A DNA stretch of 54,674 nt, taken from Opitutales bacterium (GTDB lineage: Bacteria; Verrucomicrobiota; Verrucomicrobiia; Opitutales; Opitutaceae). Below the pieces are notes generated by a model. It saw only the letters and a list, made by a program, of their open reading frames with translations, was not told the origin of the DNA and searched no databases. This document shows, one piece after another, positions 13,695-22,451 of the stretch (the stretch's first letter is position 1; every line of letters starts with the position of its first letter). The DNA lies in NCBI GenBank assembly GCA_018700525.1, contig JABITN010000192.1:1-54674 (forward strand), read 5' to 3'. The position numbers were made by a program, and so were the translations under genes.

Positions 13695-13867
13695 AGGCCT
13701 CTACGATCCGAACGCTCTCCTGGGATTCAAGGCTAATCAATTCTATGAGAACGCTTTTCCAACGAGAAGCCTAGGGTTTCTAGGCTAATTAACGATCAAT
13801 GGGAACTTTGACAATTAAACTGCTTTCCTATTCAATTTCCCAATCGTTTAAAACCACCTTACCTGAA

Positions 13868-14593
13868 ATGAGCTCAACATCTATTCTCCGATCGACCTTG
13901 ATCGCCATCGCTTCTTTCCTGTTCTCCGTATCCTCCCAAGCTGGGATCGAAAACGTTCCACCAGCAAAGTTCCTCGAACTCGCGAATCGAAATAACGGTA
14001 TCATTCTCGACGTACGCACCCCCGAAGAAGTCGCTCAAGGTCACATTTCAGGAGCCAGCGTCCTGAATATCTACGACAAGGATTTCGAGCGAAAACTCAA
14101 TTTAATGCAAAAGGACAAGCCAATCTACGTCTATTGCCGATCAGGCGGCCGAAGTTCCAAAGCTGCTCAGACCATGAATGCCAACGGATTCAAATCCATC
14201 TACAATTTAACTGGCGGTATCGGAGCCTGGAACAACGCCAAGCTCCCTCTAGAAAAAACGGATAACGTGCCCGCCGAAAAAGCGGCCCCTCTTTCCCGAA
14301 ACGATTTCGAAGAAAAGCTAGCCGCTAAATCCGTGGCGCTAGCGGACTTTCACACAGAATGGTGCATGCCCTGCAAGCAAATGGCTCCGATAATCGATAA
14401 TCTTGAAAAGGAATTTGCAAACCAAGCGTCTATCATTCGAGTCGACCTAGACAGCAGCCCTGAGCTTGGGTCGAGCTTCGAAGTCCAAGGTGTCCCCGTT
14501 TTCATTCTCTTCGTAGACGGCAAAGAACAATGGCGTCACTCTGGGACTATCGACGTGCACGTTCTTCAAGCGAAAATCGCAAGCGCCCTATAG
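13868..14593 (+). CDS. Exported rhodanese-thioredoxin fusion protein
   Basis: A 241-residue protein with a signal peptide (MSSTSILRSTLIAIASFLFSVSSQAG) and two domains. The rhodanese domain (about 28-127) has its active Cys at 90 in YVYCRSGGRSS and the substrate loop LDVRTPEEVAQGH. The thioredoxin domain (about 143-241) has WCMPC at 165-169. The first domain can bind a persulfide and the second can reduce or exchange it, so the fusion could pass sulfur or electrons in the periplasm. Start at ATG 13868 is preferred over 13799 because the signal peptide then lies at the N-terminus. It ends 19 nt from the convergent end of the next gene. It is near, but not part of, the bacillithiol operon. Confidence 0.88.
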   Translation: MSSTSILRSTLIAIASFLFSVSSQAGIENVPPAKFLELANRNNGIILDVRTPEEVAQGHISGASVLNIYDKDFERKLNLMQKDKPIYVYCRSGGRSSKAAQTMNANGFKSIYNLTGGIGAWNNAKLPLEKTDNVPAEKAAPLSRNDFEEKLAAKSVALADFHTEWCMPCKQMAPIIDNLEKEFANQASIIRVDLDSSPELGSSFEVQGVPVFILFVDGKEQWRHSGTIDVHVLQAKIASAL

Positions 14594-14612: not shown

Positions 14613-15206
14613 CTATTCCTTCTTCTTCGGCGCCTTATTTTTCGGAGGCGTAATCATAATGTGGGCACGATGCGTTCCCGCGTCCATAATCCAAGGAGCT
14701 CCAGGAACAACTGCAGCGAGTGGCAAGCCCGTACTTTCAGGAGTCGCAAATGGGATGTAGAACACCCAACGCAAAAACGTATTCTCGATCTCCTTAGTTT
14801 CATTATTCACCTCGCCCGTCATCACGTTTAGCAATGCGCGCTCGGGCATCGAGAGTTTACCCGATCTCACCTCGTCCTCGCGGATTTGAAAAATCTCTTT
14901 CGTCTTCTTGCCTTCCTTTTTCAATTCACGCCCACGAGCCATAAAGGACTCTAAACTGTCATGGTAGCAAGCGACGCTAAACCCTTTACGAGCCGGATCG
15001 TCGGCTAGGCAAATGAGGTCGTTAGTCCCCTCTCGCAAAACAGCAAAGGTCCCATCACTCTTATAACCAAGAACAGTCGATTTCGCGTGCTCATGCTCAG
15101 GAGCCGCTAATACCGCAGTGGCGATTTGCCAATCTTCGGAGGGATAATTTTGAGCGAACGACGCAACCGTCGCAGTTAGGGTAATTAAAAAAACGTAAAA
15201 CTTCAT
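14613..15206 (-). CDS. Exported protein of unknown function
   Basis: A 197-residue protein with a signal peptide (MKFYVFLITLTATVASFAQ). The mature part has an ICLADDPARKGFSVACYHDSLE segment with two Cys residues, a middle with many charged residues, and ends in a Lys-rich tail (PKNKAPKKKE). GTHRAHIMI near residue 180 holds two His that could bind a metal. I do not recognise the family. It follows the bshA gene on the same strand after 69 nt, so it may be the last gene of that transcript, but the spacing is looser than inside the operon. Confidence 0.7.
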   Translation of the reverse strand: MKFYVFLITLTATVASFAQNYPSEDWQIATAVLAAPEHEHAKSTVLGYKSDGTFAVLREGTNDLICLADDPARKGFSVACYHDSLESFMARGRELKKEGKKTKEIFQIREDEVRSGKLSMPERALLNVMTGEVNNETKEIENTFLRWVFYIPFATPESTGLPLAAVVPGAPWIMDAGTHRAHIMITPPKNKAPKKKE

Positions 15207-15275
15207 AAACGAAGACGTAATTGTATTTAGTACAGAGAGGCAATCCGTATTTTCGAGAGACCTTCACGGCGCGAA

Positions 15276-16400
15276 TTAAGCCAAAACGTCCCGGTAAGCT
15301 GCGAGATAGGATTCCACGACCGTAGACGCTGAAAACATTTCAACTGCTCTTCTTTTCGCCCTATCTCCCATACGGTATCGTAAAAAACCATCCTGCGCCA
15401 AGCGAGCAATCGCTTGACCCAGACGGTCGGTATCCTCGAAAGGAACTAGAAAACCGGTCTCTCCATCCTCAACCACTTCAGGAATTCCGCCAACATCGAA
15501 TGACACGCTTGGCAAGCCATGACGCATACCCTCCAAAATTCCGAGGCAGAAACTTTCGTACTCCGACGAGTAGACAGTAAAATCAGAAGCCGCATAGTAG
15601 TCGTCAACCTCATACACGTCATCGATTACGATCACTCGATCCGTTAAGCTATACCTTTCTATTTCCGGCAATATCCGCGACGAATCCGCACCCGCCAAAA
15701 TCAACAATTTCCCGTCATGCTCAGCAACCGTCGATTGAAACCCAGCTAAGAGTAAATCCACCCGTTTAATTAAACGAAGATTCGACGCATGAATAGCCAA
15801 CGGTTCGTCGCCAATATCCAATGACACTCTAATTTGCTCCCGCGAACGGACTACGGTTTTGGGCTCGAAGAAATTTGGAATCACGTCGATTTTCTTCTTT
15901 AGCTCAAAGAGCGCTAATGTACGCTGCTTCAAATTCTCGGAAACGCATGTCACCTTATCCGATGCTTCTAGAACATGTTGAAGCAATAATCGGTACTCCG
16001 GCATTGCTCCCAAATAAACGATATCGGTCCCATGTAGCGTCGTCACGATTGGCGGCGCGGCCAGCCCAATCAATTCCCTAGCGATCCAAGCTGCAGCTGC
16101 GTGCGGGATCGCGTAGTGAGCATGAACCACGTCGATCTCGTACTGCGAACAGACCTCCGCAATCCGTGTTGCCAAAGGCAAGGTATGGTCGGGACTTTTG
16201 AAAAGCGGGAATTCGACCGGAGTCGACTCGCAAAAATGAACTCTCGGATAATCATCCTGCATCCGAAAAGGCGGTCGCTCGGAAATAATGAACACCTCAT
16301 GACCCAAATCCGCCAACCGGTGACCCAATTCCGTAGCCAGGATTCCACTACCTCCGACGGTCGGATGACAAAGCAATGCGACTCTCAGTAATTTACCCAT
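15276..16400 (-). CDS. bshA: N-acetyl-alpha-D-glucosaminyl L-malate synthase (bacillithiol step 1)
   Basis: A 374-residue GT4-type retaining glycosyltransferase that joins UDP-GlcNAc and L-malate to form GlcNAc-malate, the first step of bacillithiol synthesis. The N-terminus LLCHPTVGGSGILATELGHR (residues 9-28) is the distinctive BshA glycine-rich loop. LHGTDIVYLG near residue 122, SDKVTCVSENLKQ and VIPNFFEPK are further BshA signatures. SEYESFCLGILEGMRHGLP near residue 280 carries the nucleotide-sugar binding Glu residues. Length matches the family. The ATG at 16400 follows AGGA by three bases; the preceding bshB ends 3 nt upstream, so translation is probably coupled. Last gene of the tight operon. 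Assignment is strong. Confidence 0.92.
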   Translation of the reverse strand: MGKLLRVALLCHPTVGGSGILATELGHRLADLGHEVFIISERPPFRMQDDYPRVHFCESTPVEFPLFKSPDHTLPLATRIAEVCSQYEIDVVHAHYAIPHAAAAWIARELIGLAAPPIVTTLHGTDIVYLGAMPEYRLLLQHVLEASDKVTCVSENLKQRTLALFELKKKIDVIPNFFEPKTVVRSREQIRVSLDIGDEPLAIHASNLRLIKRVDLLLAGFQSTVAEHDGKLLILAGADSSRILPEIERYSLTDRVIVIDDVYEVDDYYAASDFTVYSSEYESFCLGILEGMRHGLPSVSFDVGGIPEVVEDGETGFLVPFEDTDRLGQAIARLAQDGFLRYRMGDRAKRRAVEMFSASTVVESYLAAYRDVLA

Positions 16401-16403
16401 TTC

Positions 16404-17117
16404 CTACAAACGCGGGCTCCTTAAAGAGCTCAGATCAGCTGAAGAAGCAACGATCAAGGGCCCTTCCGAATAAAGCCGCAACGCAGATCCCACTCCCATT
16501 TGAATCCCTAAAGTCCGAGCCCGCGAAAGCTGAAGATCGGTATAATCCAAATTGCTCGTCTGACTCGAATGACACTGCATCAACGTTTTCCACTTCTCAA
16601 CCTGCGGCGACACATCCACCAAAATAGGCGTCAAACCATCTGTCCCCAACGCCTCGCTCGAAATATCATAAAACAACAAAGCCTCTACCGCATGAGGATC
16701 AAGATCCTCTAAACCAGGCGTTTTCCCATATCGAGCCAATCGATGCCCATCGCGAACGATGCGACTCGTTTCACGATGATCCGGGTGTTGATTCAAATGC
16801 CCTGTCGGTGCAAGAATCAGATTGGGCCGCAATCGGCGAATCATTTTCGCAGCAAGCAAAGTCGTATCCAAGTCCGCCCGTATTCGCGTATCTCCTGCGG
16901 TCGACGGAAAATGAATCTCCGCCCCCAGCATCTCAGCCGCTTGACGGGCTTCGTCCTCGCGCTTCGAACGATCTCCATGAGTCCCCGCTTCTCCGCGAGA
17001 CAAAACCGCCAAATCCAAATGCGCTCCTCGTTCGGCAACATCCAAAAGCAACGCTCCGCAACCAAACTCAATATCGTCGGGATGTGCACCAAAAGCTAAA
17101 ATTCGTTTACCATTCAT
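16404..17117 (-). CDS. bshB: GlcNAc-malate deacetylase (bacillithiol step 2)
   Basis: A 237-residue LmbE/PIG-L-family zinc hydrolase, BshB1-like, removing the acetyl group from GlcNAc-malate. The metal and catalytic motif AHPDD is at residues 11-15 (LAFGAHPDDIEFGCG) and the second metal site is HPDH (LNQHPDHRET), with GEAGTHGD between them as in BshB1. No signal peptide, so cytoplasmic. The ATG at 17117 is preferred over an upstream one at 17189, since it begins right at the conserved MNGKRILAFG; it overlaps the end of the preceding gene by 11 nt. Followed after 3 nt by bshA, which makes the function very likely. Confidence 0.9.
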   Translation of the reverse strand: MNGKRILAFGAHPDDIEFGCGALLLDVAERGAHLDLAVLSRGEAGTHGDRSKREDEARQAAEMLGAEIHFPSTAGDTRIRADLDTTLLAAKMIRRLRPNLILAPTGHLNQHPDHRETSRIVRDGHRLARYGKTPGLEDLDPHAVEALLFYDISSEALGTDGLTPILVDVSPQVEKWKTLMQCHSSQTSNLDYTDLQLSRARTLGIQMGVGSALRLYSEGPLIVASSADLSSLRSPRL

Positions 17118-17886
17118 GTTCGCATTCCGCGTAAGCCTCCCCTGATCGATCGATAAAATCGCGCTGGACGTACTCGATTTCCGGAGCATCTTCCTTATTT
17201 AAATACCGAATCTCTCCTTCGCCAGCAACGTATTGCGTACAATGAATGACGGATTGCATCCAACGCAACCGCGTATCGCGCGTTGGACTTATCTGCGATT
17301 TGCTGGGATTTTCCACCGCTACCTCAATATACCGATCGCCTCCCTTGTAGATAAAATAGCCACCATTGCGATACCGTGCTCGCACAATCTCGCCCTCGTA
17401 AGGCGTATCCACAAAATAATCGTCTACATCAATTGCTTTTTCGCGAAAGGTCGGATCGCTCGATCGAACGATTTCTACGCCATCGAGCAGCCCCATCTTC
17501 CGATACATTTCAATACAGAATTCCGTAACGTTGTCCGTCTTGACTGAATCGAATAGCTCAACCAACTCCCTATCTACCAAATTCGGCAAGCAACGACGCG
17601 TCTTTTTCCTCCAACCCGGACGAATCGTTTTGCAGTAAAGTGGCGAGTAGCGTTTCTGGATAGCATTGCTTACTTCGAAATTAATCCGTTCAATCTTACC
17701 CGAATGACGATTCGTTAACGCAACGCTGGTTTCCCTGGAGTCATGATCGCTATCGTGAAGAAAGAATACTATACTCCCGCCAAGCTCGGATTGCAGGCGT
17801 CGCGCCGTTTTGATCTTAGCATACACAAAACGATTCGGAAAGATTCCACAAGGCTGCTGACCTAAACAGATAATCGGATCAGACAT
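17107..17886 (-). CDS. Compact BshC-like protein, candidate cysteine-adding enzyme (bacillithiol step 3)
   Basis: A 259-residue soluble protein. Seen: GQQ at 9-11, followed by a Lys/Arg helix (VYAKIKTARRLQSELG) and HDSDHD at 44-49; near the C-terminus SPTRDTRLRWMQSVIHCTQ (200-218) and YVAGEGEIRYL (219-229). Known of the family: BshC (about 540 residues) has a GQQ-GLF-GPLY start, an EDHD motif and a late SPN-LLRP...YVAGPGEIAY motif in its Rossmann-like core. The same motifs occur here in the same order in about half the length, with no room for the C-terminal coiled-coil and connecting helices. With bshB and bshA directly downstream, the inference is a minimal BshC. Start at ATG 17886 follows GGAGG and overlaps the symporter stop by 8 nt; an earlier in-frame start at 17904 lies inside the symporter gene. 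Catalysis is unproven; the first Asp-for-Glu in EDHD is notable. Confidence 0.68.
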   Translation of the reverse strand: MSDPIICLGQQPCGIFPNRFVYAKIKTARRLQSELGGSIVFFLHDSDHDSRETSVALTNRHSGKIERINFEVSNAIQKRYSPLYCKTIRPGWRKKTRRCLPNLVDRELVELFDSVKTDNVTEFCIEMYRKMGLLDGVEIVRSSDPTFREKAIDVDDYFVDTPYEGEIVRARYRNGGYFIYKGGDRYIEVAVENPSKSQISPTRDTRLRWMQSVIHCTQYVAGEGEIRYLNKEDAPEIEYVQRDFIDRSGEAYAECEHEW

Positions 17887-19579
17887 TTGCTTTCTTCCCT
17901 CCAATTACTGACTGTAATAATAGACTCAATACAATCACAAGGAAACAAGCAATTAGATTGTACCAAAGATATCCAATCTCCACAAAATCCGTAAGGTAAA
18001 CAACCAATACGGTCACCTGAGCGATCAAAGCCGCCACGAAGGCAGCATTCGCCCTGACGCGTTTAATGAAAAACGCCGCGAGAAAGAGGCCCAAGACTGT
18101 GCCGTAAAAAAGCGATCCCACGATATTTACCGCTTCGATCAAACTCTCTACCATACTTGCAAATAGCGCGAAGAGGATAGCCAATCCACCCCAAATCGCG
18201 GTGAAGATTCGCGAGATCAATTTCGTGTGAGCATCATCCGATCGCTTATTTATATAACGCTGATAAAAATCCACCGTCGATATTGTCGCCAACGCGCTGA
18301 GCTCCGATGCTGTCGAGGACATAGCAGCACACAAAATCACCGCCACAAGCAGACCGATTAAACCGACCGGCAGTTCATTAAGAATAAAATGGATGAACAC
18401 GTAATCAGAATCCTTCATAGACGCTTCCCCTGCCATGTCAGCTATGTGATCCTTCAAATTCGTTCGTGCATCGCGGATTTCCTGGCCCGACGTTTCCACG
18501 CGTGCCCTGACCTCCTCGACGCTCGCCTCATCGCCTGAGCGAACCGCATCCACGTAATCCGCTAACGCAATCCGCTGACGATCGAAAACCACATCAAACT
18601 CACCTTCCAGGTTCCGGTAGGCATCGGTTTCAGTGGCGACGATTTTCTGAACCATCGAATCCGGCAAGAAAGTTGCCGGTGGTTTCTCCCATTGATAAAA
18701 GACGAAGACCAAAACCCCTAATAGGAGGATCATAAACTGCATCGGCACTTTTAACAGTGCATTGAACATAAGCCCCAATCGGCTATCACGGACGGACTGA
18801 CCTGACATGTAACGCTGAGCTTGTGACTGATCCGTCCCAAAATAAGATAGGGAAAGGAAAAACCCTCCCAGCAATCCTGACCACAAAGTGTAACGCTTAT
18901 CGATATCGAACGAAAAATCGACCACGTTCAAGCGACCCAAAGAACCCGCAATTGTCAGATTTTCGCTAAAACTAGCATGTCCTGAGATTTTGTAGACAAC
19001 GATCCCGAACGCTATAGCCATACCAGTCAATATGACGCTCATCTGGTATTTATGCGTCAGACTCACTGCGTGCGATCCGCCAGTCACCGTATAGATAACC
19101 ACTGCCAACCCAACACCGACAACCGTCGCATTCATGTTCCAGCCAAGTACGCTCGTCAGAATGATGGATGGAGCGTAAATCGTAATACCTGCCGAGAAAC
19201 CACGTTGTATCAAGAATATGATACTCCCCAAAGTCCGCGTTTTCGAATCGAAGCGATGCTCCAAAAATTCGTAAACCGAGCATAACTCTAGCTTGTAATA
19301 CATAGGGACGAACACGACGGCGATGAGGATCAAAGCCAATGGCATGCCGAAGTAATTCTGCACGAAAGCCATCCCGCTATCGTAAGCAAGGCCGGGGGTC
19401 GACAGAAAGGTAATCGCGCTCGCCTGAGTCGCCATAACCGACAAGCCGATCGCTCCCCACTTATTGGAACTGCCCTTTAGAAATTCATCCAGTTTCTGAT
19501 CGTTCCGCGTCTTCCAGACACCGAAAAATACGATCGCGATCAAAGTCGCACTTAGCGTTGCAATATCAAATCCACTCAT
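17879..19579 (-). CDS. Sodium:solute symporter (SSS family)
   Basis: A 566-residue inner-membrane transporter with the SSS/LeuT-type fold: FLKGSSNKWGAIGLSVMATQASAITFLSTPG at residues 34-64 is the typical first core helix, and CAAMSSTASELSALATISTVDFYQRYI near 425 is the typical Na+-site helix with the conserved Ser-rich segment. About 13 hydrophobic segments are visible. Between two of them (roughly residues 310-395) lies a long charged, helical stretch rich in Glu, Arg and Asp that most family members lack. The substrate cannot be read from sequence. Position between an exported LmbE hydrolase and bshC/B/A genes suggests a bacillithiol-related or amino-sugar-malate compound (inference). It starts 6 nt after the 47-residue membrane protein gene and overlaps the next gene by 8 nt. 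Confidence 0.88.
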   Translation of the reverse strand: MSGFDIATLSATLIAIVFFGVWKTRNDQKLDEFLKGSSNKWGAIGLSVMATQASAITFLSTPGLAYDSGMAFVQNYFGMPLALILIAVVFVPMYYKLELCSVYEFLEHRFDSKTRTLGSIIFLIQRGFSAGITIYAPSIILTSVLGWNMNATVVGVGLAVVIYTVTGGSHAVSLTHKYQMSVILTGMAIAFGIVVYKISGHASFSENLTIAGSLGRLNVVDFSFDIDKRYTLWSGLLGGFFLSLSYFGTDQSQAQRYMSGQSVRDSRLGLMFNALLKVPMQFMILLLGVLVFVFYQWEKPPATFLPDSMVQKIVATETDAYRNLEGEFDVVFDRQRIALADYVDAVRSGDEASVEEVRARVETSGQEIRDARTNLKDHIADMAGEASMKDSDYVFIHFILNELPVGLIGLLVAVILCAAMSSTASELSALATISTVDFYQRYINKRSDDAHTKLISRIFTAIWGGLAILFALFASMVESLIEAVNIVGSLFYGTVLGLFLAAFFIKRVRANAAFVAALIAQVTVLVVYLTDFVEIGYLWYNLIACFLVIVLSLLLQSVIGGKKANV

Positions 19580-19585
19580 AATCGC

Positions 19586-19729
19586 CTAATCAAAGGTCTT
19601 GGTCAGCCAAGCGAAAAACGCAATTTGCGCCGCCAGGAATCCTACAACGATCAGGTATAACCTGGTCCATCCTTTAGAGCTCTCGTCTTCGAAAGACGAC
19701 GAGGTTTCATTGTTCGAATCAGTTTCCAT
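19586..19729 (-). CDS. 47-residue single-helix membrane protein
   Basis: A short open frame, ATG at 19729 to TAG at 19586. The product has an acidic, Ser/Glu-rich N-terminal tail (METDSNNETSSSFEDESSKG), then GWTRLYLIVVGFLAAQIAFF as one membrane helix, and a short WLTKTFD tail. The start codon overlaps the end of the upstream LmbE gene by 11 nt and the stop is 6 nt before the symporter start, which is what a real, translationally coupled gene looks like. By position it may be a small partner or stability subunit of the symporter. I do not know a named family for it. Confidence 0.7.
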   Translation of the reverse strand: METDSNNETSSSFEDESSKGWTRLYLIVVGFLAAQIAFFAWLTKTFD

Positions 19730-22238
19730 GACCTAGTGATATGAGATTTACAAATAAACGAATAGCGCCTGCGTTGCCCTCCGGAAGTTGCCTGAAAAAC
19801 GAAAGCCCCGTGTAAGCGTACCACCCTTTCCCGTACTGGGCAACCAGAAGGCCACCGTCTCTAGCGGGTTCACCTCGGTCGTTAGCCGACAGAAGCGATG
19901 CGTAGGAATCATCCCATGAAGATGCGTAGTACAAGCCGCGTTCCTGTATCCAATTATCGAAGTCGCCTTTGACAATTCGATTGGGAATATTGAAAATCGG
20001 ATGGTCAGGCTGCAAAATGCGCATCTCTACTTTTTCCTCGGATACGCGATCTCTGGACAATTTAATCGGATAAGGGGCAGTGAAACTCGATTTGGTTCGA
20101 AAGCTGGTTGTGTTGAACTGCGAAATCACAGTCCCGCCCGCTTCCACATAGGCGAGTAATTCATCGAATCGCTTATCAAGACCCGCATGGGCATCGAAAA
20201 CCCGTGGTCCCAAGATGACCGTGTCATATCCGACGAGGCGTTCCCGGGCGATTTCCTCCACCGGAATACGATCGATTTCATAACCAATTCGCTGAAGCGT
20301 CTCCGGAATAGTATCGCCAACGCCAACAATGCAAGCAATTCGATTTCCAGCCCGCTTCAGATCAAGTCGTACCAATTTCGTTTGGACTTTCGACAAGATC
20401 GCCTGACGACCAATGTGCTCGTAATCGATAGGCTGAGACCCCAACTCGAAGCGTGCTCCTTTCGCATTCGTCGCATGAAAGGACAACAAACCCTCGGATC
20501 CCTCTTCTGGCGGCGTCACTGTAACGCCAATCACCGCGCTTGGATTCCGTTTCGTTAAAGCGAAATCCGGATTCTCAACCTCAATTGTCCAACCGTTCGG
20601 AGCAATGACGTTCAATGATCCGCTCTGATCGCCAACATTACTCGTCACAGATACCTCAATCCACTTCGGTTTCGTATCTTCGAAAAGCGTTACGGCGGAA
20701 TCGGTTGCCAAAACCAGCTCCGGACGGATAGCCACGATCTTATGAACTTCGCCCTTGATCGGGTCGCTCACGCGCTCGATTGCGGGAACCGAAAGCGGAA
20801 TCACCCTACCCTCAATTTCGAGTTCCGCGGTCACCTCGATCGGCGACGGCACATTCTCCAATTCCAAAAGACGTTCATTCTCAAAGTGATATATACCCGC
20901 ATCAGGCGGCGTCTTCAGCCAAAACGGTTGCGTCAACGGGACATCGGCAGGAAGCTTAAAGCCCAACTCCACATTTTCAACACGATCAGCCTCAAGGGAC
21001 TTATTCAATTTCTCAATACGTTCTAGACCAATACTAGCTGGCCATTGATCGCTATCGAACAAACGAGCTTCAAGGCTTCGAAGAGTTACCCCAACCGGAG
21101 AACGATTGACAAGCTCTACTTCCAAAACGACGTCCTCGCCTGGAGTTAAGTACGAATTCTCAGATCGTGCTTGGACATGAATTCCCATCGATGCTATAAT
21201 AACCCGATGCAAGGCAGCTCGTTTCGATCGCGTCAGTTTAGACTCTGGCAGAGTTTCCATCAAGGCGTCTAGCTTGGCCAATTCCGGAACCGTTTTCCAA
21301 GGTGCCGCAAAGTCGAAATCGCCAATCGCCTTCTCTAGCAAATCATTCAGCTTCTCTCCATCCGGAAAGCGCTTCCAACTGGTATCCACTCCATTCAGGA
21401 AATCGCCTTCGGCAGCAGCGCCTTCCAGCAAAACCAATCGCTCCAATTGGCCGCCGCGGCTACCAGCCCGGCCGAAACCTTGGCTCTTATGCATACTCCG
21501 ACTACGTGCGGAAATTTCCGTGTAGGAAGTTCCCAAATACGGATTGTACTTCCCGATTTCCAGTTCCACGATTTCCCGCTTCTCGCTGCTCAAACCGCCT
21601 CCCCCGCGACGACCGTAGCCATTCCAAAAAATTCGTTTTGCCTGATGAATTCCGACATGCTCCAGCTGCTCGGGAAATTGCGTTGAGTCCGCTGCCAGCG
21701 AAAATGCCTTCAAGGCCAACTGTGCCGAAACCGTGTGATGCCCATGCGTGGGACCTGCAGCAGGGTTAAAGCGCGTGATAATCACATCAGGCTTAAAAGA
21801 GCGAACCGCGTAAACCACGTCGCCCAAAACCTTCTCTTCCTGCCAATTCTCCAAAGTATCCTCCGGGTTCTTAGAATAGCCAAAATCTCGAGCTCGAGTG
21901 AACAGCTGCTTAGCTCCATCGAGCTTTCGAGCCTGAAACAATTCGTTCGCCCGAATCAGCCCCAATCCCTCCTTCAGCTCCGAACCGATCAGATTTTGTC
22001 CTCCACCTCCGCGCGTTAGAGCCAGATAAGCCGTATCGAGCTTCTCCTCTTGGGCCAAGTAAGCCAACAAGGCCGTGTTCTCATCATCAGGATGAGCAGC
22101 CACAAACAAAACTGATCCAACAGTCTTCAGTTTGTGCAGTTCATGGAGGATTTCCGAAGATGGCAGCGATTGACCAATTAAGACAGGCGAAAGCGACATA
22201 GCGGTTAAGATGAGTACCGTTCGGGGCGAATACGACAT
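19719..22238 (-). CDS. Exported LmbE/PIG-L-family amidohydrolase with C-terminal amidotransferase-like domain
   Basis: An 839-residue exported protein. A signal peptide is visible (MSYSPRTVLILTAMSLSPVLIGQS). The LmbE domain (about 35-270) has AAHPDDENTALLAYLA and the second metal site THGHHTVSAQLA. A middle part (about 370-620) looks like beta-rich, Ig/NEW3-like domains. The C-terminal 200 residues (GYDTVILGPRVFDAHAGLDK, then VEAGGTVISQFNT) resemble a ThuA/glutamine-amidotransferase-like fold. LmbE enzymes cleave acetyl or amide groups from GlcNAc-type substrates; this one would act in the periplasm. First gene of the operon that includes bshB, so it could process extracellular bacillithiol-like or GlcNAc-malate conjugates (inference). 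Start at ATG 22238 is preferred over a TTG at 22250. Confidence 0.85.
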   Translation of the reverse strand: MSYSPRTVLILTAMSLSPVLIGQSLPSSEILHELHKLKTVGSVLFVAAHPDDENTALLAYLAQEEKLDTAYLALTRGGGGQNLIGSELKEGLGLIRANELFQARKLDGAKQLFTRARDFGYSKNPEDTLENWQEEKVLGDVVYAVRSFKPDVIITRFNPAAGPTHGHHTVSAQLALKAFSLAADSTQFPEQLEHVGIHQAKRIFWNGYGRRGGGGLSSEKREIVELEIGKYNPYLGTSYTEISARSRSMHKSQGFGRAGSRGGQLERLVLLEGAAAEGDFLNGVDTSWKRFPDGEKLNDLLEKAIGDFDFAAPWKTVPELAKLDALMETLPESKLTRSKRAALHRVIIASMGIHVQARSENSYLTPGEDVVLEVELVNRSPVGVTLRSLEARLFDSDQWPASIGLERIEKLNKSLEADRVENVELGFKLPADVPLTQPFWLKTPPDAGIYHFENERLLELENVPSPIEVTAELEIEGRVIPLSVPAIERVSDPIKGEVHKIVAIRPELVLATDSAVTLFEDTKPKWIEVSVTSNVGDQSGSLNVIAPNGWTIEVENPDFALTKRNPSAVIGVTVTPPEEGSEGLLSFHATNAKGARFELGSQPIDYEHIGRQAILSKVQTKLVRLDLKRAGNRIACIVGVGDTIPETLQRIGYEIDRIPVEEIARERLVGYDTVILGPRVFDAHAGLDKRFDELLAYVEAGGTVISQFNTTSFRTKSSFTAPYPIKLSRDRVSEEKVEMRILQPDHPIFNIPNRIVKGDFDNWIQERGLYYASSWDDSYASLLSANDRGEPARDGGLLVAQYGKGWYAYTGLSFFRQLPEGNAGAIRLFVNLISLGHGN

Positions 22239-22451
22239 GTTACGTTTCAAATTTTAGGAGATAATAAGAGTCTTTGACTTTCTCTCACTCTCTACGAGCC
22301 AAGATCTCTATTTAATGCCAACTTTTTCGAATTTGCGAACAAACCCGCTTCGCAGCCAATATGACCGTTTCAAGAAATCAACCTTCCCATTAGTCCGTTC
22401 TTGGAATGGCATTCCAATCCCAGCGGTTTTCATTCAATCTTACCTAACGCT

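Follow-up and report, generated by a model that had tools for sequence, protein, structure and literature searches.

A half-sized BshC-like protein probably catalyzes the missing last step of a protective-thiol pathway in Opitutales bacteria

Can a protein half as long as canonical BshC complete a bacillithiol-type pathway? The question arises from the window, the whole 54,674-nucleotide stretch of contig JABITN010000192.1 (Opitutales bacterium, assembly GCA_018700525.1) that was analyzed, in which a 259-codon gene stands next to bshA and a bshB-like gene. In the scheme proposed for this locus, BshA would join GlcNAc and L-malate, BshB would deacetylate the product to give GlcN-malate, and the short BshC would then form bacillithiol by coupling an amino acid (most likely cysteine) through its carboxyl group to the amine freed on GlcN-malate. 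Our reading of the short gene, to which we give a probability of roughly 0.75, is that it encodes a compact, coiled-coil-free ligase of the BshC superfamily that acts at this last step. This reading draws on a predicted fold, conserved residues, co-occurrence with BshA, and a canonical operon position. Ligation of cysteine is likely, and ATP use and bacillithiol as the product are both presumed.

The sequence-only reading of this DNA had described a 259-residue gene directly upstream of bshB and bshA, and both this arrangement and the positions of four strings within the protein, GQQ (residues 9 to 11), HDSDHD (44 to 49), SPTRDTRL (200 to 207), and YVAGEGEIRYL (219 to 229), were confirmed (Table 1). 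It had also called BshA and BshB clear. BshA scores above its model cut-off; for BshB, TIGR04001 was the best match, at 124.6 bits under its cut-off of 182.5, and PF02585 scored over its own. A ribosome-binding site, GGAGGG, lies at 17902 to 17897, 10 nt 5' of the short bshC start codon, and the start of the gene overlaps the symporter stop by 8 nt. The bshB reading frame is open from 17189; its start is likely the ATG at 17117, which gives an 11-nt overlap with the end of short bshC, and bshA follows bshB after a gap of 3 nt. Judged by this spacing, the symporter gene, short bshC, bshB, and bshA are one operon. The gap between the exported PIG-L gene and the symporter gene is 139 nt and contains two same-strand terminator-like sites, so the PIG-L gene may belong to a separate transcript. 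Across positions 15100 to 22450, terminator-like sites numbered 14 versus 8.2 in shuffled sequences, and a promoter scan found 9 sites versus 7.5 in shuffles, which is no excess. Near the cluster, on the opposite strand (13799 to 14593), is a gene for a rhodanese-thioredoxin fusion, a homologue of which occurs near 5 of the 80 best loci among 305 relatives.

Table 1. Coordinates of the short bshC gene, its conserved motifs, and neighboring genes in the window
Feature	Position	Strand	Basis or remark
Short BshC-type ligase gene (putative), 259 aa	17107..17886	-	ATG at 17886; fold and profile searches
GQQ, residues 9-11	17854..17862	-	Invariant in 73/73 short and 7/7 canonical BshC
DHD, residues 47-49	17740..17748	-	Invariant in 73/73 short and 7/7 canonical BshC
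YVAGEGEIRYL, residues 219-229	17200..17232	-	G222, E225, Y228 invariant in short and canonical
bshB-like PIG-L deacetylase	16404..17117	-	PF02585 over cut-off; TIGR04001 best match
bshA, N-acetylglucosaminyl-malate synthase	15276..16400	-	TIGR03999, 354.7 bits vs cut-off 273.7
Sodium/solute symporter, SSS family	17879..19579	-	Upstream homologue in 74/80 loci (best 80 of 305)
Large PIG-L hydrolase, apparent signal peptide (by eye)	19719..22250	-	AHPDDE and HGHH motifs

An AlphaFold2 model of the window protein, built from a 73-sequence input, had a pLDDT of 95.2 and a pTM of 0.91, and a Foldseek search of this model against the PDB returned a single match at an E value of ≤0.001, Bacillus subtilis BshC (4wbd; E, 1.5e-9). 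With VIA-align 2, 243 of the 259 residues aligned with 4wbd at 2.6 Å (Z, 20.2), with about 15% identity in the structural alignment. The runner-up was class I lysyl-tRNA synthetase (1irx), which aligned over 210 residues with a Z of 14.6, and the other matches listed scored 9.0 or less. At 507 to 508 residues, 1irx differs from the short form in length, as well as in gene context, which for the short form is thiol biosynthesis. MshC and cysteinyl-tRNA synthetase have a class I synthetase-like fold in common with the model, with a much weaker structural match (3sp1_B; Z, 8.4), and the window protein had no Pfam or NCBIfam match to MshC or cysteinyl-tRNA synthetase profiles at an E value of ≤1. 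The short protein is predicted to have the Rossmann-like core of BshC, the fold that the earlier proposal had named as a check on itself.

Canonical BshC (YllA, 4wbd) and the short form share this core, 14 invariant residues, a partnership with BshA and BshB, and a place before bshB-bshA that is also seen in canonical operons of the same phylum. The two differ in what surrounds the core. Canonical BshC is about 540 residues long (541 in the 4wbd chain), and the seven proteins compared here had 519 to 554 residues, except for one of 474 because its contig ends. The short form retains the nucleotide-fold core, including the beta insertion of BshC. Missing from it are roughly 80 residues at the N terminus, about 40 between DHD and the beta insertion (by hand pairing of F158 with F285), and nearly everything past canonical R377, where the coiled-coil of B. 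subtilis BshC is placed. This C-terminal coiled-coil mediates dimerization, according to excerpts of a 2015 review (PMC4360819). The earlier statement that canonical BshC has about 540 residues with a coiled-coil agrees with the 4wbd chain and these excerpts, and its statement that the coiled-coil is without counterpart here agrees with the 259-residue length and with a model that shows no long C-terminal helices. Among the window neighbors tested, no replacement for the missing part was apparent. In the absence of the coiled-coil, the short form should be a monomer or dimerize differently.

At 14 positions, the 73 short proteins and the 7 canonical BshC proteins aligned all had the same residue: G9/89, Q10/90, Q11/91, K24/104, D47/133, H48/134, D49/135, E52/138, R206/334, Q211/338, G222/350, E225/353, Y228/356, and R242/377 (short/canonical numbering), with 13 of the pairings taken from an hhalign alignment that has weak statistics of its own and R242/R377 paired by hand. 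The string SPTRDTRL, which the sequence-only reading had counted as a BshC hallmark, is not one, but its R206 does fall on a canonical invariant residue, as do Q211 and the G222/E225/Y228 set downstream of it. Other canonical invariants (G93, G97, P98, W128, and A130) are replaced in the short form, A130 by H44, and the first-loop region reads GQQPCGIFP instead of GQQAGLLTGP. Four residues, H44, D45, C124, and C216, were invariant in 73 of 73 short proteins, and H44 and D45 are outside the canonical invariant set.

Sequence profiles gave a weak signal. PF10079 (18.3 bits, cut-off 27; E, 0.0016) and TIGR03998 (14.5 bits, cut-off 265.8) were the sole Pfam and NCBIfam matches of the window protein at an E value of ≤1. 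PF10079 also matched 11 of the 73 short relatives at an E value of ≤0.01, the best at 8.5e-6, and going by these E values, none of the 73 would reach the PF10079 cut-off. An hhalign comparison of the short family with BshC gave an E value of 0.00086 with a probability of just 23.6. The expectation of a significant profile match to BshC was borne out by the PF10079 E values and not by the hhalign probability or by scores that stay under curated cut-offs. BshC was missed when the PDB was searched with a single sequence and with a profile, and a short-family HMM matched the 7 canonical BshC proteins only at E values of 1.5 to 45. In the other direction, a profile of the 7 canonical proteins, searched against 2056 open reading frames plus the canonical set, placed 16 short-family entries (some being the same gene in two loci) directly behind the canonical ones at E values of 0.024 to 0.85. 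The first unrelated frame followed at 0.96, and the remaining short-family entries were interspersed with unrelated frames. The ranking of the 16 entries is supportive, not decisive.

Nucleotide comparisons point to a functional gene. In eight relatives of equal length, 71 to 76% identical to the window protein, differences fell mostly at third codon positions; the gene at locus L031, for example, differed from the window gene at 45, 30, and 136 first, second, and third positions, respectively. By this measure short bshC is a real gene under purifying selection. Open frames around some relatives extend to 870 amino acids, and since many relatives have frames of 256 to 290 amino acids, the long ones were taken as stop-free upstream extensions.

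Of 150 genomes of the window's family, 91 carry the short form. In a phylum sample of 240 genomes with completeness of 90% or more, it was present in 14, comprising 12 from the window's family and 2 from another family of the order. In the order of locus L058, recorded as cyanobacteria/Obscuribacterales, 21 of 53 genomes also have it. A scan of 84,980 species genomes yielded 305 relatives, the best 80 of which are the named loci; the records of these 80 also name Chthoniobacterales, Spartobacteria, and Limisphaerales, which did not appear among the carriers in the 240-genome sample. Two record labels look wrong: Gemmatimonadetes for L039, which is 72% identical to the window protein, and Proteobacteria for L107, whose genome, G377, is assigned to the same order as L058.

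The distribution of BshA follows that of the short form. BshA was counted by its model cut-off, because at an E value of ≤0.001 the model matches glycosyltransferases in all 240 phylum genomes. Over the cut-off it was found in 16 of the 240, exactly the 14 genomes with the short form plus 2 with canonical BshC. In the 150 family genomes, BshA was present at an E value of ≤1e-70 in 90 (88 of them over the cut-off), and all 90 carry the short form. The single family genome with the short form and no BshA at this threshold, G028, is 84% complete. This partition strongly supports the earlier suggestion that such a short form could be the missing bshC of genomes with bshA. Canonical BshC over the cut-off occurred in none of the 150 family genomes; a single match, in G078 (20.1 bits; E, 6e-4), fell within the short gene of that genome. 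Likewise, canonical BshC was found in none of the 13 genomes that carry 13 of the 80 named loci. Within the same phylum, the class that includes G192 had it in 4 of 59 genomes. Viral contigs were also scanned, and no canonical BshC was found in them. A hidden full-length BshC was also considered for the window's own genome and rejected, as a search of that one genome gave no match.

Gene order was examined in the best 80 of the 305 relatives. BshA was encoded immediately downstream in 75 loci, and in the remaining 5 no more than 1.2 kb of contig is left. BshB was near the short gene in 55. In 22 loci, including L043, L051, and L060, bshA follows short bshC with no adjacent bshB, which may sit elsewhere. 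Four genomes from a single genus (G001, G079, G102, and G121) have bshA on contigs other than that of the short gene. Of the window's other neighbors tested, only two are widely kept: the symporter, upstream in 74 of 80 loci (of the other 6, the upstream flank is shorter than 600 bases in 3 and longer in 3), and the exported PIG-L protein, with an upstream homologue in 51 of the 57 named loci whose flank is 5 kb or longer, including one short partial match. The window PIG-L protein matches the mycothiol conjugate amidase model weakly (41.2 versus 277.15 bits). In the phylum's canonical loci the order bshC-bshB-bshA was found in 3 of 4; the fourth, L147, is a 5.8-kb contig with no bshB or bshA match. 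Neither the symporter nor the exported PIG-L protein had a match in the four canonical loci, of which L147, cut at bshC, could not show them. Three of these verrucomicrobial loci carry a methyltransferase-like gene directly before canonical bshC (L144, 6799 to 7554; L145, 7982 to 8776; L146, 9637 to 10389), which may resemble NmbA.

The usual redox partners of bacillithiol were also sought. Bacilliredoxin (PF06491) and YpdA over the TIGR04018 cut-off were each found in 0 of 150 family genomes. Weaker YpdA matches (E ≤ 1e-40) occurred in three, two of which (G008 and G090) carry the short form. YpdA was present in each of the three control genomes (of 14) that have canonical BshC, and PF06491 was found in B. 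subtilis only, leaving the Thermus and Deinobacterium controls with canonical BshC and YpdA and no bacilliredoxin match. Given the lack of bacilliredoxin and YpdA, the thiol, if made, would be reduced by other means, or the product would not be bacillithiol. One tentative extension, which we think rather doubtful, is that the exported PIG-L protein, Na+ symporter, short BshC, BshB, and BshA make up a thiol system of their own, with extracytoplasmic turnover and disulfide reduction without YpdA or bacilliredoxin. In such a system, the exported PIG-L protein would act on bacillithiol-type compounds, whether released or foreign, by cleaving their amide, the symporter would reimport the sugar-malate or cysteine part, and the minimal BshC would recharge it.

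These same absences bear on the specificity of the enzyme. A BshC-type ligase might attach another amino acid or an acyl group to GlcN-malate and yield a new glycoside instead of bacillithiol, and the missing bacilliredoxin and over-cut-off YpdA across 150 genomes would fit such a product, as would the invariant residues peculiar to the short set (H44 and D45), its invariant cysteines (C124 and C216), and an adjoining exported PIG-L gene and symporter gene that are unmatched in the phylum's canonical loci (one of them cut at bshC). We consider this unlikely, since the 14 residues in common with canonical BshC are fully kept, BshA scores over its equivalog cut-off, and Thermus and Deinobacterium, with canonical BshC, also have no bacilliredoxin match (though YpdA is present).

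Half length and an unusual first loop could instead indicate that the BshC-like protein is degenerate or has a regulatory role and that an unrelated enzyme carries out the ligase step. That would be hard to reconcile with canonical-shared residues that are invariant in 73 of 73 proteins, with the third-position differences that show purifying selection, or with the gene neighborhood, where, of the window's other neighbors tested, none apart from the symporter gene and the exported PIG-L gene is widely conserved, and we hold it to be very improbable. Still more improbable is an unrelated nucleotide-fold protein with BshC motifs by coincidence: the weak statistics of the PDB searches, hhalign, and the short-family HMM would be expected of one, but the Foldseek and Z scores to BshC, well above those to tRNA synthetases, and the bshA partition argue against it. 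The reading we prefer, a compact ligase for the last step of the pathway, assigns the short form to a compact subfamily that is new within the BshC superfamily, outside the BshC equivalog by length, domains, and curated scores.

Such a protein could have escaped earlier surveys. Excerpts of Hiras et al. 2018 (PMC6282198) place Verrucomicrobia among lineages without a documented or predicted low-molecular-weight thiol and give similar length plus 30% identity as criteria for orthologs; those of a 2025 survey (PMC12719100) give similar length plus coverage above 80%. Given these similar-length criteria, as worded in the excerpts, both surveys would probably miss a half-length form. A short BshC was not found described in titles or abstract openings of the open-licence literature, and a description elsewhere is possible.

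If the short gene encodes the last enzyme, a thiol is predicted in part of the Verrucomicrobia (14 of 240 sampled genomes, all in the window's order) and in the lineage recorded as cyanobacteria/Obscuribacterales (21 of 53 genomes). Pelagicoccus mobilis (KCTC 13126; locus L072) is a cultured carrier in which this prediction is testable. For BshC itself, excerpts of the 2015 review (PMC4360819) describe an activity not demonstrated in vitro and an unknown mechanism. A form that is naturally 259 residues long would define the minimal catalytic unit and would be easier to handle in studies of the BshC mechanism.
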